NCBI RefSeq assembly: GCF_000019665.1
Contig: NC_010794.1
Location: forward strand, 1,426,001 to 1,490,000
Source: Methylacidiphilum infernorum V4
GTDB lineage: Bacteria; Verrucomicrobiota; Verrucomicrobiia; Methylacidiphilales; Methylacidiphilaceae
Reading direction: 5' to 3'
DNA: 64,000 nt
Shown here: in pieces, positions 16,546-28,653 of the stretch
How the letters are laid out: each line of letters begins with the position of its first letter
Position numbering within the stretch: the first letter of the stretch is position 1
Program-made: the position numbers and the translations under genes
Notes under the pieces: generated by a model
Databases searched by the model: none
Told to the model about the DNA's origin: nothing
Seen by the model: the letters and a program-made list of their open reading frames with translations, nothing else

Positions 16546-18417
16546 TTAAAAAAGCTGGTCTACCTCGAGGAAACCTTTCAAATGACGCAGTCTTGTAGGA
16601 TGACGCATTTTCCTTAGGGCTTTGGCTTCGATCTGTCGGATTCTTTCACGAGTTACCCGAAACTGTTTGCCTACCTCCTCCAGGGTTCGAGGATAACCGT
16701 CAAGCAATCCAAAACGTTGCTCAATAACGGTTCTCTCTCGTTCGGTCAGCGTTCCCAGTACATCTTTAATTTTCTCCCTCAACAAAGAATAACCGGTCAT
16801 CTCGGAAGGATTTTCAGCGGCTTTGTCTTCAATGAAATCTCCAAAGGTCGTATCCTCGCTTTCCCCAACCTGGGCTTGAAGAGAGATAGGATGTTGGGCC
16901 ATCTTAATGATCGTCCGTATTCTATCCACGCTCATCTGGGTTTCATCCGCTATCTCTTCAGGAGTAGGCTCCCTGCCTAGTTCCTGGATTAATTGTTTTT
17001 GCACACGCATAAGTTTATTGATCGTTTCAATCATGTGCACAGGAATCCGAATAGTGCGGGCTTGATCGGCAATACTCCGGGTTATAGCTTGCCTAATCCA
17101 CCAGGTCGCATAAGTTGAAAATTTGTACCCTCTCCTGTACTCAAACTTTTCAACCGCTTTCATCAACCCCATGTTTCCCTCTTGAATCAGGTCCAAGAAG
17201 GAAAGCCCTCGGTTGCTGTATTTCTTTGCAATAGATATAACAAGCCTCAGGTTAGCTTCCACCATTTCACTTTTAGCCTTAATCGCCTCATTCAGCCATT
17301 GTTTTAACTCCTGATGCTTTTCTTTAAAAACAGGCAGGGGAAGTTGGATCTGCTTTTCCAGTTCCCGTAGTTTTGAGTGAACGGCCTTGAGATTTTTTTC
17401 CCTTTCTTGGGGATCTGCCTCTTCTTTTTCGAAGTTCTCCAAATTTTGTTCTAGGCTTATTATTTCACGATAATAACTTTCACTGGTTTGAACGAAATCC
17501 TCGATAACCTTCTGTTTAAAATAAAATTTTTCATATATTTTTTCTAGGCATCCTTTTTGCCTTTGGAGCTCTTTTTCCAAGCTTTTCCTCTCTTTAGATT
17601 TTTCCGGACAGTCGAGGAGTTGGGAATAAAGAGAATCCACTTTTTCTATCAACAGCTCTAATCTCTCTATGAGCTCGGGTAGTTTCGCCAGATATTCCTC
17701 GCGACATTCCACCTGCTTATCCTGGATTACACGGTCAAACCTTTCTTTACCCTGTCTTAATTTTTTAGCCAGATTTAAATACTCCTTGGCAATAAAATGA
17801 AAGCTATGCAAGCAGCTCTTGACCATAGCTTCAGATTGTTCAATTCTTTTAGAAATTTCCACCTCCTGTTCCCTCGTTAATAAGGGAACTTGCCCCATCT
17901 GCTTCAAGTACATCCGTACAGGATCATCAACGATGTCCAGTTTTGATTCCTTGCCTTCGATCTCCTCTGCATCTAGAGCTGTAACCGCCTTAGCATTGTC
18001 AACATCCGAGCTATCGATAATGTCTATCTCTAGGGTTCTTAGAAAATCATAAACCGCCTCAATTTCTTCCGAATTATTTACACTTTCTGGAAGGGCTTCA
18101 TTGATATCGTCATAAGTTAGATATCCTTGCTCCTTAGCCAATTTAATCAAGGTCCGCAGCTTCTCCTGCTTATCCGGGCACTCATCCCAAATTTTTGCCA
18201 GCCTGGAAGCGATCTGTCGATCTTCCAAGACAAGTAAATTAGAGGAACAATTCTTATCAGAGAACAAACTCCCTGCGGATCCATCTAAAGCTTTTTCACT
18301 CCGCTGCTCATTTCCATATTTAGCATCAGTTTCAGGGGGGGAATCGCTCGGGTTAGAAGATGAAGGGCTTAAAGATAGAGAGACAATATCACCGGGTTTT
18401 TTGCTTTTCTTTTTCAT
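16546..18417 (-). CDS. rpoD: Primary RNA polymerase sigma factor RpoD
   Basis: A 623-residue sigma-70. Region 1.1 is recognisable near residues 75-150, region 1.2 is [29 protein letters not shown] in two overlapping parts, and a long helical non-conserved region follows. Region 2 has the promoter-melting segment [21 protein letters not shown] and the -10 recognition helix with [18 protein letters not shown]. Region 4 ends in the helix-turn-helix [19 protein letters not shown]. Region 2.4 and 4.2 are canonical, so consensus promoters should be used. The gene follows dnaG by 54 bases, the classic dnaG-rpoD pairing. Confidence 0.97.
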
Positions 18418-18471
18418 AGAGAAGAGCTTTTGAAATCAGTCTTTGAGCATTTTTGACAATGAGTAGTAAAA

Positions 18472-20259
18472 TTATAGAAGCTTTCTTGCTAAGTCAACAA
18501 TCTCCTTTAATTTTGCTGAAATTTCTTGCCCCGAAAGTATCCCCGATTGGCTTTGAAGCTTTATTCTTTCAAGGCATTTTTGCCTCCACAAAAGGAACAA
18601 ACCTTCTTGAAGGATCCTACAGTGCTCTTCTGGAGTATAACCTTCAGGTTTTTCTTGAAGAGGATGAAACATAAAAGAAACGACGATCCCTTTTTGTTCT
18701 TGAGAAAGAGTTTCAAGAAAAGAACTAATCGATACCGTCTTTTGCGCCTCCTCAAAGTCATAAAGTCTTATCAATAATTCTGCTGCCGGCATAGCGGATA
18801 AAACTCCAGCAGGGAATGTTTCTTTGAAATGAGCGATAAACTGGGGATACTCCATTAAAAACCAAAGGCTTTCTAGTATTACCGGGGGAATCTTTTCTCC
18901 CCAAGACTGTTTTTCTTGATCTTCTTTGCGGTTCAGCTCTTCAGGTCTTTTGTTGGCCGTGTCGAGTTGAGCCATTTTTTGCTCGAAAATTTCCAAGCTG
19001 ATCCCGAGCCGGGCAGCTACCTCTAAACTAGCCGTATGACGGCGGACAGGATCACTTATTTTGATAAGAAGTCCCGCCATCTTCTCGGCAATTTTGCTTT
19101 TGCCAAAAGCTTGTTGGGGAGAATATTCCAGGCAAGCTTTGTTTAAAACGAACGAAGGATAAGGAAGGGCTTCTTCAAGGACTTTTTCAAACGCCTCTCT
19201 TCCCTTTTTAGAAATCAGGCTATCGGGATCCTCTCCAGGAGGAAGCTGCGCTATTTTGATTTCAAGCCCCTCGGCAAGGAGTATCTCCGACGCCCTCAAT
19301 GCTGCCTCTTCACCAGCCCTATCTCCATCATAAGCTACGAAGACCTCGGAACAAAATCTTTTCAATAATCCTGCTTGATGTTCGGTTAGTGCAGTACCCT
19401 GGGTAGCCACGGCGGTAGAAAATCCGGCGGCATGGAGTCGTATGAGATCGATATGACCTTCACACAAAATCGCTTTGCCTGTTTCTGCAATAGCTCTCTT
19501 TGCCTTATGGAAGCCATAAAGAATTTTTCCTTTTGTAAAAATGGGACTTTCGGGAGAATTAAGATATTTAGGTCCCTGTTCTCCTTCAATAAGCCTACCG
19601 CTAAAACCAACGACTTTCCCCGCTTCATCGGTGATCCTGAACATGAGCCTGCCTCGAAATCTATCGTATATTTTTGAATGCTCTGTTCGAATAACCAGTC
19701 CCGCCGGCTCAAGCATTTCGAGGAGCCCCTTTTTAGTCGATGCCCACCTAAGCAATCCATCCCAGCTGTTTAGGGCATAGCCGAGGCCAAATTCTTTTGC
19801 TATACATAAATCTATATTCCTTTCTTTGAGATAGGCCCGGGCAGGCTCCCCGGAAGGCTCGTCAACCAGGATCTTCGTCCAGTATTCCGCAACAGCCTCA
19901 TGGAGTTCCCACAATTTTTGCTTTTGCCTCAAGGATTCATTTTGTTCTTCGTAGCGAAAGGACGAGGGAAAGCTCAATCCCGCTCTTCGGGCAAGATGTT
20001 TTAATGCACCTATAAAATCCAATTTTTCATAATACATGATAAAATCGAACACCGTCCCTCCATAACCGCTGCTAAAGCACTTAAAGAGTTGTTTTTGGGG
20101 ATCTACAAAAAAAGAGGGTGTTTTTTCTTTCTTAAAGGGGCTAAGCGACTTAAACTTAGAACCGGCTCTTTTTAGCACCACGTATTCACTCACCACTTCA
20201 ACGATGTCGTTGGCTTGACGCACTTTTTCGATGAATTCTTTAAAGTCTACTTTGTCCAT
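18472..20259 (-). CDS. dnaG: DNA primase DnaG with eroded zinc finger
   Basis: Makes RNA primers for replication. 595 residues: an N-terminal CHC2-type domain (about 33-90), the catalytic domain with GFSGRLI, and the TOPRIM segment with EGHIDLIRLHAAG and VFVAYDGDRAGEEAALRA, then a C-terminal helicase-binding region. The family zinc ligands C40, H43, C61 and C64 appear here as S40, K43, C61 and S64, in LSPFKKEKTPSF and KCFSSGYGG, so zinc binding is probably lost while the fold sequence remains. Start codon at 20259 gives the usual short lead. It heads the dnaG-rpoD unit. Confidence 0.95.
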   Translation of the reverse strand: MDKVDFKEFIEKVRQANDIVEVVSEYVVLKRAGSKFKSLSPFKKEKTPSFFVDPQKQLFKCFSSGYGGTVFDFIMYYEKLDFIGALKHLARRAGLSFPSSFRYEEQNESLRQKQKLWELHEAVAEYWTKILVDEPSGEPARAYLKERNIDLCIAKEFGLGYALNSWDGLLRWASTKKGLLEMLEPAGLVIRTEHSKIYDRFRGRLMFRITDEAGKVVGFSGRLIEGEQGPKYLNSPESPIFTKGKILYGFHKAKRAIAETGKAILCEGHIDLIRLHAAGFSTAVATQGTALTEHQAGLLKRFCSEVFVAYDGDRAGEEAALRASEILLAEGLEIKIAQLPPGEDPDSLISKKGREAFEKVLEEALPYPSFVLNKACLEYSPQQAFGKSKIAEKMAGLLIKISDPVRRHTASLEVAARLGISLEIFEQKMAQLDTANKRPEELNRKEDQEKQSWGEKIPPVILESLWFLMEYPQFIAHFKETFPAGVLSAMPAAELLIRLYDFEEAQKTVSISSFLETLSQEQKGIVVSFMFHPLQEKPEGYTPEEHCRILQEGLFLLWRQKCLERIKLQSQSGILSGQEISAKLKEIVDLARKLL

Positions 20260-20356
20260 GTAAAAAGAAGAATTAACCGGCTATTGTTCTTGTCATTTTT
20301 TTAATTTATCATTATGAATAAAACCGAATAAATTTATATCATTATAACCGCTTATA

Positions 20357-21475
20357 GTGATTATTGTTTATCTCTTATTTGTTGAACTTTTAGTTTGTCC
20401 CTTCTCTTCAATCTGGGCTACTGAGAAACACCGAGTTATCGTTGTAGAGAATTCGGCTTCCATTACGGGTTACGAAGCCAACGGCCCTGTAGTCAAGGCC
20501 ATGTTTCAAGCCGCACTCAAGAGCTATACCCTAAAATCTACAGAAAAAGAAGCTTGGACGGCCTTTTTCCACATTAGTCCCAAAGAAGATGTGATCGGGA
20601 TAAAGATAAACTCGAGTGGGGGAAAGGTGATGTCCACAAGAAAGGCGCTGGTGAACGCCATTGCAGAAAGTCTCATGGAAGCGGGTGTGCCTTCCCAGCA
20701 CATCATTGTTTGGGATAAATATGAAGATGACCTTTACAATGCAAGTTATCTTCCTTTAGCTGAAAATAGCCGGTATTTTGTCAAATCGGTCATTCCTCAA
20801 ACGGGTTTTGACCCGAAGGTTTTTTATGTCAATGAAATTTTAGGAAAGCTCATATGGGGAGATATGCTCTTTCAGGGACTCAGACCCACTCCCCTACAAG
20901 CAAGACAACCTTCAGATTCTGAGGAAAATGTTGCCCGATTGTACGAAAAAGGAGTTCCTGTAAGCAGCCTAGAAAGGCGGGTAAGCAATAAATCCTTTTA
21001 TGCAAGGCTTGTCACCCAGATTTGCTCTAAAATTATCAATGTTCCCGTTCTTTCCGATAACCCCAACATTGGACTGAACGGCTGTTTGGCTTCCCTTGCC
21101 CTAGGCATGGTCGATAACACCAGAAGGTTTCAAGGCGAAGGGGTTTGGGGAGATCCTGCCATAGCTGAAATACTTGACCAACCCCTGGTTAGGAAAAAAA
21201 TCATTCTTCATGTCATGGACGCTCTCATTGCCGGATTTGCCGGAGGACCTCAATTTAGCCCTGAATACTCGGTAGTTTCCGGAAGTATCTACTTGAGTAC
21301 CGATCCTGTCGCTATCGATTCTTTCGTTCTCCCGTTGGTTGATTCCTGGAGGTTAACTGCAAAAATACCGCCCCTCAGTCCTTGCTCCCATTACATCCAA
21401 ACGGCCGAAGAATATGGATTGGGTATAGCCAATCGCAAAAATATCGAAGTTGTAAAAATTTCCCTTTCACCCTAA
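20357..21475 (+). CDS. Secreted DUF362-like protein
   Basis: A 372-residue protein with an N-terminal hydrophobic signal (about residues 2-20). The body matches my recollection of the DUF362 family: KEDVIGIKINSSGG, LIEAG-like segment AESLMEAGVPSQHIIVWDK, INVPVLSDNPNIGLNGCLASLALGM and STDPVAIDS. The family has no firm biochemical role. It has no ferredoxin-type cysteine cluster. A GTG at 20357 is the likely start as no ATG precedes the signal segment. Divergent from dnaG, with mazG following about 75 bases on. Confidence 0.65.
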   Translation: MIIVYLLFVELLVCPFSSIWATEKHRVIVVENSASITGYEANGPVVKAMFQAALKSYTLKSTEKEAWTAFFHISPKEDVIGIKINSSGGKVMSTRKALVNAIAESLMEAGVPSQHIIVWDKYEDDLYNASYLPLAENSRYFVKSVIPQTGFDPKVFYVNEILGKLIWGDMLFQGLRPTPLQARQPSDSEENVARLYEKGVPVSSLERRVSNKSFYARLVTQICSKIINVPVLSDNPNIGLNGCLASLALGMVDNTRRFQGEGVWGDPAIAEILDQPLVRKKIILHVMDALIAGFAGGPQFSPEYSVVSGSIYLSTDPVAIDSFVLPLVDSWRLTAKIPPLSPCSHYIQTAEEYGLGIANRKNIEVVKISLSP

Positions 21476-21548
21476 TCGCAAAAAAGGGGATAATTGTTTA
21501 ACAGAGCGTTAATCCTTATAATAATTGAATCTCTTTATTGAGCTGACT

Positions 21549-22334
21549 ATGAATCCCCCAGAATGGCTCCTTTTTGATCCTCTTCTCAGGGTACTAACGA
21601 TAATGACCATACTCAGGTCTCCCCAGGGTTGTCCCTGGGATAGGGAACAGACGCATAAAAGTTTAAAATCCCAATTGATAGAAGAATGTTATGAACTTCT
21701 CGAAGCGATAGACCAAGAAGATCCATCCTCGATAAAAGAAGAACTGGGAGATATCCTTCTTCATGTTCTCTTTCATGCTCAAATAGCCCAGGAAGCAGGA
21801 AAATTTTCTTTTTGGGATATACTGGATAATCTCTCTGCCAAGCTCATCCGCCGTCATCCCCATGTTTTTGGAACCCAAACAGCTTCTACTACCGATGAAG
21901 TTTACCAAAATTGGGAGAAGATTAAGAAAAAGGAAAAACCCCATAGAGAAAGTCTTTTTGACGGAATTCCCCTTTATCTGCCTGCATTAATAAAAGCCAT
22001 GAAACTCCAATCCAAGGCTTCAAAATTAAACTTAGACTGGAAGGATCCTCAAGGTCCTCTTTCAAAAATGCAGGAGGAACTCGATGAAATAAAAGAAGCT
22101 TACGGAGAAAAAAATAGAGAAAAGATAAAAAAAGAAATAGGCGATCTTATATTTTCTGCCGTGAATTTTTCAAGGATGCTTGGAATCGATCCTGAAGAGG
22201 CGATCAAAGAATCCTCTGTTGTTTTTGAAAAACGATGCCGGTTTATTGAAAAAGAATTAAAAGCCAGCACCCTTCCAGAAAACCCCGAAGATCTCGATAA
22301 ACTCTGGGAAAAAGCCAAGGAGATCTACCCTTAA
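21549..22334 (+). CDS. mazG: Nucleoside triphosphate pyrophosphohydrolase MazG
   Basis: Hydrolyses NTPs and dNTPs to monophosphates and pyrophosphate, cleaning the nucleotide pool. Two MazG repeats are seen: the first with CPWDREQTHKSLKSQLIEE and the metal-binding ELGDILLH, the second with the EELDEIKEA and EIGDLIFSAVNFSR segments. About 261 residues from the ATG at 21549 (a TTG at 21525 is the alternative). It is the last core gene before the plasmid-derived island. Confidence 0.9.
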   Translation: MNPPEWLLFDPLLRVLTIMTILRSPQGCPWDREQTHKSLKSQLIEECYELLEAIDQEDPSSIKEELGDILLHVLFHAQIAQEAGKFSFWDILDNLSAKLIRRHPHVFGTQTASTTDEVYQNWEKIKKKEKPHRESLFDGIPLYLPALIKAMKLQSKASKLNLDWKDPQGPLSKMQEELDEIKEAYGEKNREKIKKEIGDLIFSAVNFSRMLGIDPEEAIKESSVVFEKRCRFIEKELKASTLPENPEDLDKLWEKAKEIYP

Positions 22335-22347
22335 AAATATTTTGGCA

Positions 22348-22524
22348 TTACCAAGGCCTCTGCATAGCTGGGTTGTAGCGAGGAGGGCTTTTCCTAAGCA
22401 ATAGCTGCATATGCTGGGTATAATAAGCGACTTTCTTGAGCTGTCTAGCATTCCGCGCGACGGCTACTTCTCTAAAGTCCGTCCCAATGATTACGTATTT
22501 GATCTTGATCTTATTGCGTGCCAT
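22348..22524 (-). CDS. Small unknown protein B1 of duplicated unit
   Basis: A 58-residue frame whose ATG (22524) overlaps the end of the upstream DUF6166-like gene, suggesting translational coupling. The sequence KIKIKYVIIGTDFREVAVAR resembles the B2 protein (22878-23012) of the second unit in pattern (KI..I.V...G....AV.R.A). The two small frames are therefore probably real and homologous. Function unknown. Confidence 0.5.
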   Translation of the reverse strand: MARNKIKIKYVIIGTDFREVAVARNARQLKKVAYYTQHMQLLLRKSPPRYNPAMQRPW

Positions 22525-22802
22525 ATTTGCACCAACTCCTTGATTTGCTGTTCCGTAAGCTCCCACCCAAATCCGCTCTGAAGCCTCGAGACAATGTCCA
22601 GCACTGCATCGAATTCTTCATCTTTAAGGCCAATATCAATGACCAAGTCCCTCGCAAGCTGCTGCGGCCCGGGGCCTCGAAAGCCCCACTCGTGCACGGG
22701 CCATCCCTTATCTAGGGGGATCCACCGCCCGTTTTCCTCCACGATATAGACGCGCGGCCAATGGTCACCTTCATATACACCGACGTATTTCTTCACTCCC
22801 AT
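22491..22802 (-). CDS. DUF6166-like protein, copy A1
   Basis: A 103-residue protein with the segment WGFRGPGPQQLARDLVID, which resembles the DUF6166 family (pattern WGYGGSGPAxLALxIL), a group common on phages and plasmids and without known function. The first 15 residues (MGVKKYVGVYEGDHW) are almost identical to the second copy at 22979-23311, and the DNA duplication continues upstream. Its ribosome-binding site is in the conserved GGGAG/ATG context at 22803-22812. It overlaps the small B1 frame. Confidence 0.6.
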   Translation of the reverse strand: MGVKKYVGVYEGDHWPRVYIVEENGRWIPLDKGWPVHEWGFRGPGPQQLARDLVIDIGLKDEEFDAVLDIVSRLQSGFGWELTEQQIKELVQIWHAIRSRSNT

Positions 22803-22857
22803 CTCCCGTTAATTTGCGGACTGGATTGCGACTAGCTGGCTGCTCGAACCGACAACG
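22746..22857. repeat. Tandem duplication block, copy 1
   Basis: About 112 bases nearly identical to 23255-23365, with a few substitutions and one single-base indel; the last 46 bases (22812-22857) are identical to 23320-23365. It covers the start of the A1 gene and its upstream leader. The period is about 508 bases, equal to one A-B gene unit, so the arrangement is a tandem duplication followed by divergence. Confidence 0.85.
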
Positions 22858-22877
22858 TCAAGCTCCACCCAGCACGC

Positions 22878-23012
22878 TCAACATGCTTTCGCGAAAGAAC
22901 GCACGACTCTCTCCACGTCTCCAGCATCGCGTATCACGGCAAGACTGATATAGTCTTTTTTGCCGAAAGTGCGAACAGCTATAGTTGTGATTTTTGTTTC
23001 GCTGCATGCCAT
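22878..23012 (-). CDS. Small unknown protein B2 of duplicated unit
   Basis: A 44-residue frame starting at an ATG inside the end of the A2 gene and ending with the codons for KAC before a TGA. Its core (KITTIAVRTFGKKDYISLAV) has the same pattern as the B1 protein, and it keeps the same overlap with its upstream DUF6166-like gene. Conservation of this layout in both units is the reason for calling it. Function unknown. Confidence 0.45.
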   Translation of the reverse strand: MACSETKITTIAVRTFGKKDYISLAVIRDAGDVERVVRSFAKAC

Positions 23013-23311
23013 TGCTTCACCCTTTCCCTTATTTCTTGTTCCGTCAGTTCCCAGTTGGATCCGCGCCTAAGATTAAGAACGATATCAAGCACAGCATCGA
23101 AATCTATGTCTTCAAGACCAGCGTCAATGATTAAGTCCCAAGCGAGTTGCTTAGGCATGGAGCCAATGTATCCCCACGCGTGGGCGGACGAACCCCCGTC
23201 AAGGGGGTTCCGGATGTTAACCTTGAGGCTTCTCTTATTGCCGTGTTCTAAAACATAGACGCGCGGCCAACGGTCACCTTCATATACACCGACATATTTC
23301 TTCACTCCCAC
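22979..23311 (-). CDS. DUF6166-like protein, copy A2
   Basis: A 110-residue paralogue of A1, with HAWGYIGSMPKQLAWDLIID in place of the A1 core and the same start (MGVKKYVGVYEGD). The middle region differs: A2 has an insertion with NIRNPLDGGSS. Differences are spread over the protein, so the duplication is not recent except near the start, where the DNA is almost unchanged; this may mean conversion between copies. Function unknown. Confidence 0.6.
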   Translation of the reverse strand: MGVKKYVGVYEGDRWPRVYVLEHGNKRSLKVNIRNPLDGGSSAHAWGYIGSMPKQLAWDLIIDAGLEDIDFDAVLDIVLNLRRGSNWELTEQEIRERVKQWHAAKQKSQL

Positions 23312-23365
23312 CTCCCATTATTTGCGGACTGGATTGCGACTAGCTGGCTGCTCGAACCGACAACG
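23255..23365. repeat. Tandem duplication block, copy 2
   Basis: The partner of 22746-22857. Its last bases also form the final codons (SLSVRAAS) and stop of the small unknown gene at 23340-23570, which shows that the duplicated unit began within or next to that gene. Confidence 0.85.
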
Positions 23366-23570
23366 AACTTTCCGGTCCAACATTGACTATTGTTCCCTCG
23401 GTCAGCGGAGGATCAACGACAACAGTTACCTCATCGCGTCTTTCTTCCACTTGTGTAATTTTAGTTTGCGGAAGCTCTTCAATCCGTAGCCATTTTTGAG
23501 TTTGCGGGTCAAAGACCCTGGTAAACACGATGCCGAAACGTGGATGATCAATAACAAAGTCCAACTTCAT
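23340..23570 (-). CDS. Small unknown protein
   Basis: A 76-residue frame with no family I recognise. It begins MKLDFVIDHPRFGIVFTR and has a hydrophilic, strand-rich look. Its last eight residues come from the repeat shared with 22812-22857, so the original C-terminus may have been altered by the duplication. It heads the minus-strand set B1-A1-B2-A2 and is divergent from the small gene at 23642. Confidence 0.45.
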   Translation of the reverse strand: MKLDFVIDHPRFGIVFTRVFDPQTQKWLRIEELPQTKITQVEERRDEVTVVVDPPLTEGTIVNVGPESSLSVRAAS

Positions 23571-23641
23571 GTCTGTCTCTTTGAATTTATATTATTTTTA
23601 CATTATTTTTATTTTATTTCAATAAAAATTCTGTAAACCTT

Positions 23642-23881
23642 TTGAAAAATATGAAAAATCTGACTATTAAAAGAAAGTATAAGCCTCTGAGAATACCTCT
23701 TTGCACAAGAATAGCTCCGGCCGCGCGCCTGCGTCTGCAACAGCTCCGTGCGAGGTACAACCTGCCCGTCGGGGAGGTGATCGAGCTGCTTTTATTGTTA
23801 CACGACAAAAAAATAAACAAAAACGATCTGGAAAAGATCGAGAAGGGGGAGAAAAAGTTCAGCGCCTACCACCAGGAATGA
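23642..23881 (+). CDS. Small basic protein, possible ribbon-helix-helix regulator
   Basis: A 79-residue protein, very basic at the start, with a central segment (RIPLCTRIAPAARLRLQQLR, then YNLPVGEVIELLLLLH) that fits a strand followed by two helices as in ribbon-helix-helix repressors. It lies just upstream of the repA-like gene on the same strand, where plasmids often have a copy-number regulator such as CopG. The start may be the second methionine (MKNLTIKRKY). The fold and role are inference. Confidence 0.45.
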   Translation: MKNMKNLTIKRKYKPLRIPLCTRIAPAARLRLQQLRARYNLPVGEVIELLLLLHDKKINKNDLEKIEKGEKKFSAYHQE

Positions 23882-23945
23882 ATAAAAAATGCCGGACGCT
23901 TGTTAGGAGAGAGGAGACAGGCGAGCGTCCGGTGGAACAGCTACT

Positions 23946-24809
23946 ATGAAAAAAATAACTGAATGCAACAATGTAAGCAAGCAGATTAAGAATTTTGTCG
24001 CAGCCGCCGACGAGATTCATTCTGGTCCCCCAACACCGACGGACGTCGGCTTCTATCACAGAATTGTTTGCCAGGTAAGCTTGCCACGCAGTCAAGTAGA
24101 TGGGGCATTTTTCGCGCGCAAGATCGGACGCGCATCCATAATTATACAACCAGGCACGCTAGTCATTGACGGCAATCCCACGCAACAGATAATTCCCTAC
24201 AGCGTGTTCCCGAGGCTCGTTTTTGCGCGCATGATGACATATACGATCAAAACGCGATCGTGCGAAATTTCTTTAGCCCGCAACCCGGCGGACCTTCTCC
24301 GCTCCCTCGAGCTGTCAGCAGAGGTGCGTCGGTATAGAACATTATACAAGCAAACGGCAACGCTCGCCGCATGCTCAATACGCCTCGGCTGGGGACACAC
24401 GACTATCACTCCCAGCATATTTGAAGAATTTATGATATGACATCAGGACGCGAGGAAAGAGGCGGCGATAGTTCTCTCATCGCGATTCTACGCGTCATTG
24501 ATCGATCACGCCGTTTCGTTTGACATGCGCGCAATCTACGCTGTGAGAGGAACAGCTCTCGGTTTTGACATATATACAATGCTGGCATACCGGCTATGCA
24601 GGCTCACGGAAATGATCGTTGTGTCCTGGGCAGCATTGAAGGAACAATTCGGGCAAGAACACGCCAATCCTCGAGACTTCCGACGCGAGTTCATCCGTCT
24701 GTTGCGACGCGTCCTAGCGGCATACCCAAAAGCCCGCGTTTGCCCGGTTGCTGGAGGCCTCGAGCTCCGACCATCTTCACCACCAATTCCAATGCTGCTT
24801 TTGAAGTGA
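23946..24809 (+). pseudogene. Plasmid replication initiator RepA-like gene with one in-frame stop
   Basis: One reading frame of 288 codons interrupted once by TGA at 24438-24440. The part before has IPYSVFPRLVFARMMTYTIKTRSCEISLARN, in two overlapping stretches, which matches the RepA pattern 'iPyG..aRLLl.wl.TeAvrtks..i.lg'. The part after has TALGFDIYTMLAYRL, SWAALKEQFGQEHANPRDFR and GGLELRPSSPPIPM, typical of the plasmid RepA C-terminal family (Pfam RepA_C). The frame remains open directly after the stop (24441 onward), with residues that continue the family alignment. Joined, the protein has about 287 residues, a normal size for this group. Either a nonsense mutation has inactivated the gene or two fragments are made. 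The replication origin was not identified. Confidence 0.7.
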
Positions 24810-24919
24810 ATAACCCTGTAAAATAAGAGTGGTCTTTTGAAAGATGATTGCCCCCTTTATGGCAGAGCAACCTTTTCTTTTAAATTGGACACTATATTTT
24901 AAAAAAGAATATTGCAGCT

Positions 24920-25741
24920 ATGACAGTTCCTTTTCACGATCCAGAATGGGTTCACAAAAAAATGATCCAGATTAGCAAGGAGCTAGGATGGAAGAGAAAA
25001 CTCCTGTGCACTGTTGCCAAAAAGTTCCCCGTAGAAGCTTTTTATTCTCATCCCGGCCGCAATCCTCCATCTACTCCGCACATTTACTTGTCTGCAGGCA
25101 TACACGGAGATGAACCGGCGGGAGTCCTGGCCCTTATTTATTGGTTAGAAAATTTCCGCTCTTTTTTTTATCCTTACCGTTTCTCCCTTATTCCCGTGAT
25201 CAACCCTTGGGGATTGAAACAAAACAGTCGACTCAACGAACAGGGCATCGATCTGAATAGAGCATTCCAAAATACGAATCTTTCTCCTATTAAAGAAATC
25301 CGGTCCTTTCTCGAAACTCAAGGACCTTTTGATCTCTCCTTGCTCCTTCACGAAGACTATGACGCCCATGGAGTTTATCTTTACGAAACCCCGGCCAACC
25401 TCAAGCTGGGTAAAAAAATCTTGGATGAAGTTTCAAAAATTTGCCTCATAGAGAATCGCCCCAAGATAGAGGGGAGAAAACATAACGGCGGAGTGCTCTC
25501 TCGACCCTTAAGGAAAAACCGCTTTGAAAAAATGGGATATCCTGAAGCCGTTTATCTTTATTTTCAGCTCCAATGCAAGAAAATTTATACGATTGAAACT
25601 CCCTCAGAATGGGACATTGAGAAAAGAATACAAGCTCATTTTACAGCCATTAATACCGCTCTTTCCTTGCTTTCAAGGGAAAAACAGTTATTTTTGGAGA
25701 ACGCTTCTACGGATTCTCCAAAGAATACCATTCAAGATTAA
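24920..25741 (+). CDS. M14-family zinc metallopeptidase (succinylglutamate desuccinylase/aspartoacylase-like)
   Basis: A 273-residue protein with the M14 zinc ligands: H and E in AGIHGDEPAG and a histidine in LLLHEDYDAHG. The arginine segment NEQGIDLNRAFQN binds the substrate carboxylate in this family. No signal peptide, so it acts in the cytoplasm. Relatives cleave murein peptides, acyl-amino acids or deacylate; the substrate here is unknown. It stands alone after the plasmid island; convergent with plsC across a gap of about 180 bases. Confidence 0.7.
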   Translation: MTVPFHDPEWVHKKMIQISKELGWKRKLLCTVAKKFPVEAFYSHPGRNPPSTPHIYLSAGIHGDEPAGVLALIYWLENFRSFFYPYRFSLIPVINPWGLKQNSRLNEQGIDLNRAFQNTNLSPIKEIRSFLETQGPFDLSLLLHEDYDAHGVYLYETPANLKLGKKILDEVSKICLIENRPKIEGRKHNGGVLSRPLRKNRFEKMGYPEAVYLYFQLQCKKIYTIETPSEWDIEKRIQAHFTAINTALSLLSREKQLFLENASTDSPKNTIQD

Positions 25742-25919
25742 GACGTTGAAAGTCTCTCTCATTTTAGCCCGATTGTCGTCCAATCAATTTTTAAGGATTT
25801 TGGATAGAAAAGTGTCGAAAGAACGATTGCAAGAAACCGTTACCTGAATAGTCCTCGATCCTTTCCCAACCGTCATCCCATAAAACCACCTGGTTGAAAG
25901 TCCCCTGCCCTTTGAAGAC

Positions 25920-26621
25920 CTACCTGGGGCGGGGAATTTTTTCTTTCCATCTCTGCTGGGCTGAACAAGGCCATTCAAAAGGCTCAATGTTGTGCTGTTT
26001 AACAAGCTGCCAAAAGAGCATAAGGAGGCTATCATGGATTTTTTGCGTCAACTCGGCCCTTTTTTCCCCTTTTTCGGGGAAAATCAATTCTCCAAATTTT
26101 ACAAATATTCTCGGTCTATAAAACCAAGTTTTAGGTTGATACAAAAGGTCGGAACCTATGATGACCACCGGCAGGATTGGGCATTGAGAAAGTTGAGATA
26201 AAGTAGCCGGACTAAAAGACAATTTTGCCCCAAGCAAAATAGAATTCTTTCCATGTCTAATCCCTCGTTCCGGGAACAGTCCCACAAGCCTTCCCGCTTT
26301 GAGCCTACTGACGATGGCCTTCGCAGCCTTAGGGTCCATCCGCTCCCTATCCACCGGAATGACATTAAGATTGGTTAAAATCTGGGAAAGAACAAGATCG
26401 TTAAAAAGCTTACCATCAGCCACGTAATCAATGGGGCGGGGAGCATGCATCCCCAAAATAATAGGATCAAAATGGCTAATGTGATTGGAAACCAGTAGAC
26501 AGCCCCCGCTCGAAGGTATCCTTTCTAAACCATAAATATGTATTTTAGAGGAAATGTTAAGAATCCTCTTGCAAATGATTCCAGAAAAGAAAAAAAAACC
26601 GTCTCGCGCTTCTTGATTCAT
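25920..26621 (-). CDS. 1-acyl-sn-glycerol-3-phosphate acyltransferase (PlsC family)
   Basis: A 233-residue membrane-associated acyltransferase of phospholipid synthesis. The catalytic NHxxxxD motif is SNHISHFDPIILG, the glycerophosphate-binding motif is LFPERGIRHG, and PILPVVIIGSD is the fourth conserved block. Proteins of this size transfer an acyl group to lysophosphatidic acid. It ends the long minus-strand run that begins with pyrB. Confidence 0.85.
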   Translation of the reverse strand: MNQEARDGFFFFSGIICKRILNISSKIHIYGLERIPSSGGCLLVSNHISHFDPIILGMHAPRPIDYVADGKLFNDLVLSQILTNLNVIPVDRERMDPKAAKAIVSRLKAGRLVGLFPERGIRHGKNSILLGAKLSFSPATLSQLSQCPILPVVIIGSDLLYQPKTWFYRPRIFVKFGELIFPEKGEKRAELTQKIHDSLLMLFWQLVKQHNIEPFEWPCSAQQRWKEKIPRPR

Positions 26622-26705
26622 CGCAACTATAGCGAATCAGAACATCCGACTTTTGCTTTTTTTTAAGACTATGACAAGAAAAAGTTTCAGACAAGAAAAA
26701 GGCAT

Positions 26706-27368
26706 TCAAACAAAACGCACCGAAAGCGTCAAGGCTAGGGCTAATCTCCGGAGATATTCGCTGCGCGGTATATCCACGGCTCCCATTAAGCGCGTAACGG
26801 GTGTGGCGACCTGGGTGTCAAAAAGGACAAAACCCCTTTCCTTCAAATGAGCAACGGTAAAAGCCAAAGCCGCCTTCGAAGCATCGGTTATCCGATGAAA
26901 CATCGATTCACCGGCAAAAAAACCGCCGATAGCAACTCCATATAATCCGCCAACCAACATCCCCTTGGCCCATACTTCCACGCTGTGGGCATAACCGTAA
27001 CGATGAAGCTCGGTATAGGCTTTTATAAACCTGGGGCTGATCCAGGTGTGTTCTCTGCCAGGTGCCGGTTTAGCACAATTTTTGATTACTTCACTAAAAC
27101 ACTGGTTAATTGTAAACTGGAACTTCCCCTGCCTAATTTTTTGAGCAAGCCGCCTGGGAGGCTTAAAAGTCTCTATTTCGAAAATCGCCCTGGGGTCCGG
27201 TGACCACCACGTCAACGGTCGATCCGTCCAAGGAAATATTCCGGATCGATAACCTGCAAGAAGCCTGGAAATAGACAAATCCCCACCGACAGCAACCAAG
27301 CCGTCAGGATCGGCCTTTGTCACATCGGGAAACTGTATCCGAAATAAATTAAGAATCACGGCAGCCAC
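26706..27368 (-). CDS. aat: Leucyl/phenylalanyl-tRNA-protein transferase
   Basis: Adds Leu or Phe from charged tRNA to proteins with N-terminal Arg or Lys, marking them for ClpAP degradation. The 220-residue sequence has the typical blocks FPDVTKADPDGLVAVGGDLS, YRSGIFPW, WWSPDPRAI and AVGGLYGV-type GGLYGVAIGGFFAGESMF, and FDTQ near the end. Length and motifs match the family well. Confidence 0.93.
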   Translation of the reverse strand: MAAVILNLFRIQFPDVTKADPDGLVAVGGDLSISRLLAGYRSGIFPWTDRPLTWWSPDPRAIFEIETFKPPRRLAQKIRQGKFQFTINQCFSEVIKNCAKPAPGREHTWISPRFIKAYTELHRYGYAHSVEVWAKGMLVGGLYGVAIGGFFAGESMFHRITDASKAALAFTVAHLKERGFVLFDTQVATPVTRLMGAVDIPRSEYLRRLALALTLSVRFV

Positions 27369-27414
27369 GTTTATAAAATCAACAAAAAATAATTTAATGC
27401 AACTTTTAAATTAC

Positions 27415-28653
27415 TTAACATTTAGGCAAATCTTTGTCGAGTATTATCCTCCTTAATAGGTCTATACCGAATTGAGAAACCAATCGTTTAAAGGTAATTC
27501 TATCGGAAGGGAAAAACCGTTTATAAGCCACGGGGACCATTCCCTTCCTACTTATGGCTATCCATACCAGCCCTACGGGTTTTTCGGGGCTTCCCCCTTG
27601 GGGACCGGCAATACCCGTCACGGCAAGAGCAATATCCGCTCCACTTGTTTCCAAGGCTCCCTGGGCCATGGCTTCAGCAACCTCCTTACTCACGGCTCCA
27701 ACAGAATCAAGCAAAGATTTATTCACTTTCAATTGGCTTACTTTTGCCTCGTTGGAATACGTAACCCATCCATAAGTAAAAGCGGCTGAACTGCCGGGAA
27801 CATTGGTAAGCCTGTTGCTTATCAAGCCTCCAGTGCAAGATTCAGCCGTAGCTATCTTTAATTTTTTTGCCACGGCATTTTCTATGACCACTTCTTCTAG
27901 CTCTTTATCTTCCAAGGCATATAAATCGCTACCGAATGTTTCGGTCAAAAGTTGCATGATTTTTGTCGCCTTCTCTTGCTCCTGGAACGACAAACGAATC
28001 GAGACTTCTCCCGGACTCTCACAATAGCCTATCTCATCAACACCTATTTTTTTGAGTTTTTCTTCTACTTTTTCCTGGATCAAGGATTCGGCTATCCCGA
28101 CGACCTTACCGATAAGCCGGTAAGCCTTTTTAAGGTCAAAACGGGAACGCCACCAAGGAACAACATGCTTTTTCCACATCGGTTCCAGCTCATGGGGAGG
28201 GCCAGGAAGCATGATGAGGAAACGGCCTCCCTTTTCAATTATTGACCCACAGGCGCTACCATACTCATTATCCAAGAGAAGTGCATTTTCAAGGCAAAGA
28301 GACTGTTTCTGGATGGCCCAGTCCGGGACGGTTATTCCCGCCGCATCGTAAAAAGACTTGATCTTTCTTGATAGCTCTTGATTACCTATTAATGGAATGC
28401 CTAGAGCTTCGGATACCGCCTCTTTGGTAACATCGTCAGAAGTAGGACCCAATCCTCCCGTAACGATGGTGAGAGCTGAACGATAAAAGGACCGCCTTAT
28501 GATTTCCACCAGGTCTTTGCTGTCCGCAGCGGCAATTTGTAAAGTAAACTTTTCACCGAGAAAAAACAGTTCATGGGCCAAAAACGGCAAATGGGTATTG
28601 CTCCTATCACCCCGGATGATTTCCGTACCCGTATTAATCAATTCCACTCTCAT
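27415..28653 (-). CDS. cinA: CinA-like protein (nicotinamide mononucleotide deamidase / ADP-ribose pyrophosphatase)
   Basis: A two-domain protein of about 412 residues. The N-terminal MoaB/MogA-like domain has NTGTEIIRGDRSNTH and TGGLGPTSDDVTKEAV. The C-terminal CinA domain has ATAESCTGGLISNRLT and AVTGIAGPQGG. Known members hydrolyse ADP-ribose and deamidate NMN in pyridine nucleotide recycling; the link with competence is historical. Start chosen at the ATG at 28653, as the upstream seven codons are not conserved. It follows secA by about 30 bases. Confidence 0.9.
   Translation of the reverse strand: MRVELINTGTEIIRGDRSNTHLPFLAHELFFLGEKFTLQIAAADSKDLVEIIRRSFYRSALTIVTGGLGPTSDDVTKEAVSEALGIPLIGNQELSRKIKSFYDAAGITVPDWAIQKQSLCLENALLLDNEYGSACGSIIEKGGRFLIMLPGPPHELEPMWKKHVVPWWRSRFDLKKAYRLIGKVVGIAESLIQEKVEEKLKKIGVDEIGYCESPGEVSIRLSFQEQEKATKIMQLLTETFGSDLYALEDKELEEVVIENAVAKKLKIATAESCTGGLISNRLTNVPGSSAAFTYGWVTYSNEAKVSQLKVNKSLLDSVGAVSKEVAEAMAQGALETSGADIALAVTGIAGPQGGSPEKPVGLVWIAISRKGMVPVAYKRFFPSDRITFKRLVSQFGIDLLRRIILDKDLPKC

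Follow-up and report, generated by a model that had tools for sequence, protein, structure and literature searches.

The chromosome of Methylacidiphilum infernorum V4 carries a strain-specific island of about 2.5 kb that, judged from its sequence, is best read as the relic of a plasmid, and that holds a tandem pair of DUF6166 genes, here called A1 and A2, with strongly diverged bodies beside almost identical 5′ ends. In the reading we favor, to which we assign a probability of roughly 70%, the island is what is left of a RepA-type plasmid, its DUF6166 cargo was duplicated in tandem, the 5′ ends of the two copies became alike by recent recombination or gene conversion, and the two small frames that overlap the ends of the DUF6166 genes (B1 and B2) are by-products. 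The pair would accordingly be ordinary mobile-element cargo in a degraded plasmid, and the case is a largely ordinary one; it records a small plasmid relic, absent from the sister genomes compared, in a reference methanotroph genome, and it provides a clear example of a homogenized 5′ end in diverged tandem copies. The window, that is, the whole stretch of 64,000 nucleotides analyzed, corresponds to C1:1426001-1490000 of the single-contig genome of 2,287,145 bases, which puts the island at 1.448 Mb. The features discussed below are listed in Table 1.

Table 1. Features of the island and its flanks, in window coordinates.
Feature	Coordinates	Strand	Description	Basis
Island	22336..24872	.	Strain-specific, ~2.5 kb, between mazG and the AstE/M14-like gene; right end between ~24810 and 24872	blastn against sister genomes
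mazG	21525-22334	+	Left flank of the island
AstE/M14-like gene	24920-25741	+	Right flank of the island
B2	22348..22524	-	58-aa ATG frame sharing 34 bases with the A2 end; doubtful as a gene
A2	22491..22802	-	DUF6166 gene, 103 aa	ORF list and Pfam match
Unit 2 homogenized stretch	22746..22857	-	Leader, including a duplicate of the last 26 bases of C, plus the initial A2 codons
B1	22878..23012	-	44-aa ATG frame sharing 34 bases with the A1 end; doubtful as a gene
A1	22979..23311	-	DUF6166 gene, 110 aa	ORF list and Pfam match
Unit 1 homogenized stretch	23255..23365	-	Leader and first A1 codons; first 26 bases are the last C codons
C	23340..23570	-	76-aa frame ahead of A1 that reaches no family cut-off; the duplication breakpoint lies in its 3′ end
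D	23642..23881	+	79-aa frame upstream of repA, no family found
repA	23946..24809	+	Plasmid repA cut by an in-frame TGA at 24438-24440	Frame translation

When positions 18000-28000 of the window were compared by blastn with stretches of four sister genomes, the flanks aligned and the sequence from 22336 to about 24872 did not. The island was absent from all four genomes (4/4), in which the corresponding site is occupied by spacers of 127, 354, 345, and 403 bases, as computed from the ends of the blastn matches. Within the genus, the island pieces 22330-22900 and 23300-24900 matched only their own genome, one of five. The G+C content amounts to 0.489 in the island and 0.432 in its flanks; as the whole-genome value given in PMC6688271 is 45.48%, composition alone says little, and an island so little off the genome average counts against the favored reading. 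The two halves of repA belong to one reading frame, with the N part at 23946-24437 and the C part at 24441-24806. Among 72,556 plasmid records, the N part found 583 matches at E ≤ 0.1, and in 444 of these the match spanned at least 80% of the query; the best among the matches listed, annotated as RepA, showed 37.3% identity over 98% (E 3e-27). The C part matched RepA_C (PF04796) at 34 bits, above the cut-off of 26, and belongs to that family. The island gene has this domain and the N-part similarity in common with the plasmid RepA family and differs from it in its in-frame TGA and its chromosomal site. Since the reading frame is interrupted and the intact open reading frame of a functional initiator is lacking, the gene was classed as a relic.

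The scan of the island frames revealed no integrase, and clear attachment repeats were likewise not recognized, which also speaks against the favored reading. The same lack of an integrase led us to drop the idea of an integron gene-cassette array, and an attC consensus, compared by eye, gave no match. PMC6688271 reports nine predicted genomic islands in V4, together with about 45 kb of plasmid-like DNA in the same chromosome. The island is likewise plasmid-like, but the larger segment is common to Kam1 and SolV according to that paper, whereas the present island was not found in the four sisters compared. An estimate from gene density (2473 CDS in 2.287 Mb) indicates that the 45 kb segment should lie near 1.07-1.11 Mb, away from the island.

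Inside the island, two direct repeats with units of about 508 bases run along the minus strand with a start-to-start spacing of 508/509 bases, and the gene order on that strand is C, A1, B1, A2, and B2. The scores against the DUF6166 model (PF19663) were 27.8 bits for A2 and 27.2 bits for A1, both above the cut-off of 27, and the two proteins are 59% identical. The spacing and the two Pfam matches bear out the tandem duplication of a DUF6166-like gene proposed in the first-pass annotation; the interval it had given, 22348-23570, does hold both units and also takes in gene C, which lies outside the repeat except for its last 26 bases. Because the 26-base tail of C is copied ahead of A2, one breakpoint of the duplication falls in the 3′ end of C; in unit 2, this copy stands behind the B1 frame with no C gene upstream. 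The spacer behind A1 was also considered as a remnant of gene C, and no significant similarity was found (799 of 2000 shuffles reached the score). As for the translation starts, the GTG at 23305 in A1, behind GGGAGG, and the GTG at 22796 in A2 appear likelier than the longer starts, since the purine-rich GGGAGG/GGGAG is too near the latter.

The two units are strikingly uneven in their similarity. Their 46-base leaders show zero differences and the next 69 bases are 93% identical, in agreement with the near-identity of leader and first codons reported earlier. In the comparison of leader plus A, the strongest change point was located at ungapped site 111 of 366 (maximum chi-square 41.4), with 96.4% identity up to this site and 64.3% beyond it, and none of 2000 permutations was as extreme. 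The Ka/Ks comparison between the copies, which had been suggested as a check, gave a single synonymous difference in 12.5 sites for codons 1-19 (dS 0.085), and a dS of 1.85, near saturation, with a dN of 0.37 for codons 20 onward; for codons 44-99, the dN was 0.28 and the dS 2.0, again near saturation. The last two values indicate that A diverged under purifying selection, and the figures as a whole imply that the A bodies diverged long ago and were maintained as proteins, whereas the likeness of the 5′ ends is young. Recent recombination or gene conversion is well supported as the source of this likeness on sequence grounds, and the gene conversion at the start that the first-pass annotation had put forward gains support, as conversion or recombination, from the contrast in dS, the permutations, and the identical leader with its 26 bases of C. 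On the other side, a conversion tract of about 110 bases is small.

The order of events in the island may have been as follows. A RepA-type plasmid would have integrated between mazG and the AstE/M14-like gene in the Methylacidiphilum infernorum lineage, and its cargo gene DUF6166 would have formed a tandem pair downstream of gene C, with the left breakpoint in the last C codons. A1 and A2 would stem either from an old duplication that diverged under purifying selection or from the joining of two already diverged alleles, and a recent recombination or gene-conversion event would then have made the leader and the first ~19 codons alike. No close relative that could order these events was found, which is a further point against the favored reading. 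The strongest competitor holds that the units came from different plasmids or alleles, were joined at the shared segment of C tail and A start, and were never a simple tandem duplication. We consider it a serious contender, although it is the less probable account: the synonymous near-saturation of the bodies beside an almost identical start speaks for it, and the same genome has two further DUF6166 places, neither of which is matched by the DNA of unit 2, so that more than one acquisition is likely. However, neither a donor plasmid nor a second allele was found, and allele joining is indistinguishable from conversion after an old duplication because the evidence comes from one genome.

Somewhat less probable, and in our view unlikely, is an account with no gene conversion at all, in which selection on a promoter, an operator, or an RNA element kept the leader and the first codons identical as the remainder diverged. 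The leader does lie where a promoter and a ribosome-binding site are expected, its entire 46-base core is free of differences, and a selected regulatory leader could produce part of the observed pattern. Nevertheless, the identity extends into codons 1-19, and unit 2 retains the 26-base piece that is coding in unit 1 only, which argues against selection as the sole cause. A sigma-70-type scan, whose matches were at chance level in any case, listed no site in the leader, and a hairpin in the leader DNA was rejected, as its fold was no better than that of shuffled sequences (z 0.44). The leader DNA pattern was not found in the viral_contigs collection. When the leader and first codons were compared with 60 related genomes, the only strong matches were the two window copies, and matches of 17-31 bases at E 0.015-0.099 occurred in 11 other related genomes.

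Turning to the small frames, both B1 and B2 open with ATG-GCA 34 bases ahead of the A end, which confirms that a small ATG frame begins inside the end of A in each unit; B2 is part of a longer listed open frame. The ATG arises from the A codons for W-H-A after a codon ending in A, so the position of the B start and the 34-base overlap are set by conserved A residues, and the first 11 B codons, which lie inside A, owe their likeness to A. The 3′ end of A most likely generates the B frames as by-products, and B is probably not a gene. The opposing view, for which we see little probability, is that A and B form a real module in which B is translated from within the A end by coupled translation, the two genes having been duplicated together and maintained by selection. 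The identical 34-base overlap and ATG in both units would suit such a module, as would purine-rich stretches (AAGGGAAAGGG and AAGGAG) ahead of both B starts and the similarity of B1 to B2, which only 2 of 2000 shuffles reached over the whole of B and 13 of 2000 beyond the overlap. Downstream of the A stop codon, the two units are only weakly alike in their DNA (160 of 2000 shuffles reach the local score), and there the B frame scores 30 (1 of 1000 shuffles), but the neighboring frame 0 does equally well with 35 (2 of 1000), with frame 1 at 29 (21 of 1000); if this DNA goes back to a single ancestor, likeness would be expected in other in-register frames too. In an ungapped block some 20 codons long, B scores 26 and the other two frames 30 and 26. 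The statement that a small protein pattern is kept in both units is thus not confirmed, and the suggestion of selection on the pair is not supported, as B is no better conserved than the frame next to it. For a toxin-antitoxin-like or coupled gene pair, similarity in the B frame itself is present but equaled by frame 0.

Several observations lean slightly toward coding. The indels between the units keep the B frame (difference 12), and over 18 codons of the ungapped block the third codon position is the least identical (0.50, compared with 0.56 at the first and 0.67 at the second). With the start codon given, a frame this long would stay open by chance with a probability of 0.23 for B1 and 0.07 for B2, which leans slightly toward B and is also counted against the module. 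The window has 51 ORFs of at least 150 aa; in two of them, an ATG frame of 44 aa or more begins within the final 60 bases, and the number rises to 11 when GTG and TTG are allowed. The searches for B covered plasmids, 29 genomes, and 54 loci. On plasmids, where the pair was to be sought, B matched none of the 72,556 records; it had no relative in the 29 other related genomes, and in the 54 fetched loci it matched its own island only, plus one match at E 0.28. Among 19 distant DUF6166 loci, 18 of them from viral contigs and one from a phage record, not one has an out-of-frame ATG frame of at least 25 codons at the 34-base offset. ATG frames starting inside the DUF6166 end at another offset and with another make-up were seen in L054 (44 bases, 52 aa) and L044 (29 bases, 116 aa), and several other loci of the 19 had an overlap of 1-17 bases with the next frame. 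Absence of the small frames from homologues, which the first-pass annotation had named as the finding that would count against its proposal, was observed for distant homologues only, the searched sets containing no close one.

Haloarchaeal plasmids provide the one recurring arrangement that resembles A-B. The gene after DUF6166 was a small DUF7389 (PF24115) gene in all three downstream genes scanned (L058:4286-4549, L059:4324-4605, and L063:12326-12604), and the gene downstream of a fourth haloarchaeal DUF6166 was 89% identical to that of L059. This recurring adjacency suggests a functional pair of two uncharacterized families. As in the A-B order, the small conserved gene directly follows DUF6166, which can be counted in favor of the A-B module; unlike A and B, however, the haloarchaeal genes do not overlap, and B was rejected as a DUF7389 relative since it has no similarity to that family. 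A broader and quite improbable proposal would be that DUF6166 works with a co-translated small partner across its 3′ end, that A-B and DUF6166-DUF7389 are unrelated solutions of one two-part plasmid accessory module, and that the DUF6166 N-terminus and leader constitute an exchangeable recombining segment.

Beyond the island, DUF6166 is part of the mobile genes carried by plasmids and phages, with a recurring small downstream neighbor in haloarchaea. With a phage DUF6166 member as the query, 109 plasmid records gave matches at E ≤ 1, and in 20 of these the match spanned at least 80% of the query; among the counts listed, haloarchaeal genera lead and Mycobacterium has 7, and the top row is Geoalkalibacter, in which the gene next to DUF6166 has no family. 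A three-row profile recovered 18 viral contigs with DUF6166 from 46 candidate stretches. The neighbor scan on these contigs took in 121 of 140 ORFs, the other 19 being the ten of L052, which nearly duplicates L049, and nine more. It identified ParB, HTH, RecT, ERF, SSB, RusA, integrase, and a recombination directionality factor at E ≤ 1e-4, with 1-4 frames per family, a neighborhood that we read as the early and recombination region of phages. A plasmid replication gene (trfA, orc1/cdc6, or Cdc6) was situated within about 10 kb of DUF6166 in three of six plasmid stretches; in the other three, viewed 4 kb on each side of DUF6166, no replication initiator was listed, and this loose link to replication also weighs against the favored reading. 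From the neighboring genes we infer, with low confidence, an accessory role for DUF6166 in the replication/recombination or regulatory region of mobile elements, and the protein would in that case serve the plasmid and not the host. DUF6166 was named in no paper of the literature searched. One viral-contig protein (L053:3920-4753) has two tandem DUF6166 domains and a weak C-terminal HTH_3, the latter below the family cut-off.

At the protein level, A1 and A2 both contain the core W-G-[YF]-x-G-[SP]-x-P-x-[QED]-x-A, a motif taken from our own alignment and not from a curated description. Residues W46, G47, G50, P53, and A57 are invariant in 18 sequences, namely A1, A2, and 16 of the 18 viral members, and each of the 17 sequences in alignment A7 (A1, A2, and 15 of the 18 viral members) matches DUF6166 at E ≤ 0.1. 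Alignments A6 and A7 were made without L050 and L056, and A7 also without L052. Both window proteins score above the family cut-off and retain W-G-x-x-G-x-x-P with Q-L-A, but they are weak members, scoring 27-28 bits where the viral member L042 scores 106.9, and the GSGP of most aligned members is GSMP in A1. A1 and a typical viral member gave similar structure models (pLDDT 86.8 and 84.9, respectively), with three strands, two helices, a strand, and a helix (beta-beta-beta-alpha-alpha-beta-alpha). Foldseek returned no match at E ≤ 0.001 for the A1 model among PDB and viral models, and a sequence search of solved structures gave chance-level matches only (best E 0.13 and 0.16). In the VIA comparison, the best matches were succinyl-CoA synthetase beta chains for both A1 (Z 3.7, rmsd 3.6, 83 residues) and the typical viral member (Z 3.6, rmsd 3.9, 91 residues); as Z values below 8 may reflect only a common arrangement, no function was drawn from them.

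The searches for close relatives of A covered several collections. With A1 as the query, the 67 pattern stretches from genome_contigs and the 11 stretches from viral_contigs included no relative, and neither A1 nor A2 matched the plasmids; the three-row profile found 2 relatives among 46 stretches of genome_contigs. For phages, where the A-B pair was also to be looked for, the search was made with A1 and yielded one weak match (32%, E 8e-4), a protein that finds only itself among phages. The A1 query matched one of 60 related genomes and the A profile one of 387 genomes in the phylum, in each case its own, and the DUF6166 Pfam model matched two of 30 related genomes, its own and one other. Within the V4 genome, a third DUF6166 place is located at 821085-821372, with one TAA inside the match and 29.3 bits for its first 92 codons alone, and a broken DUF6166 gene with two TAG codons, 40% identical to A1 residues 3-61, is situated at 829957-829781.
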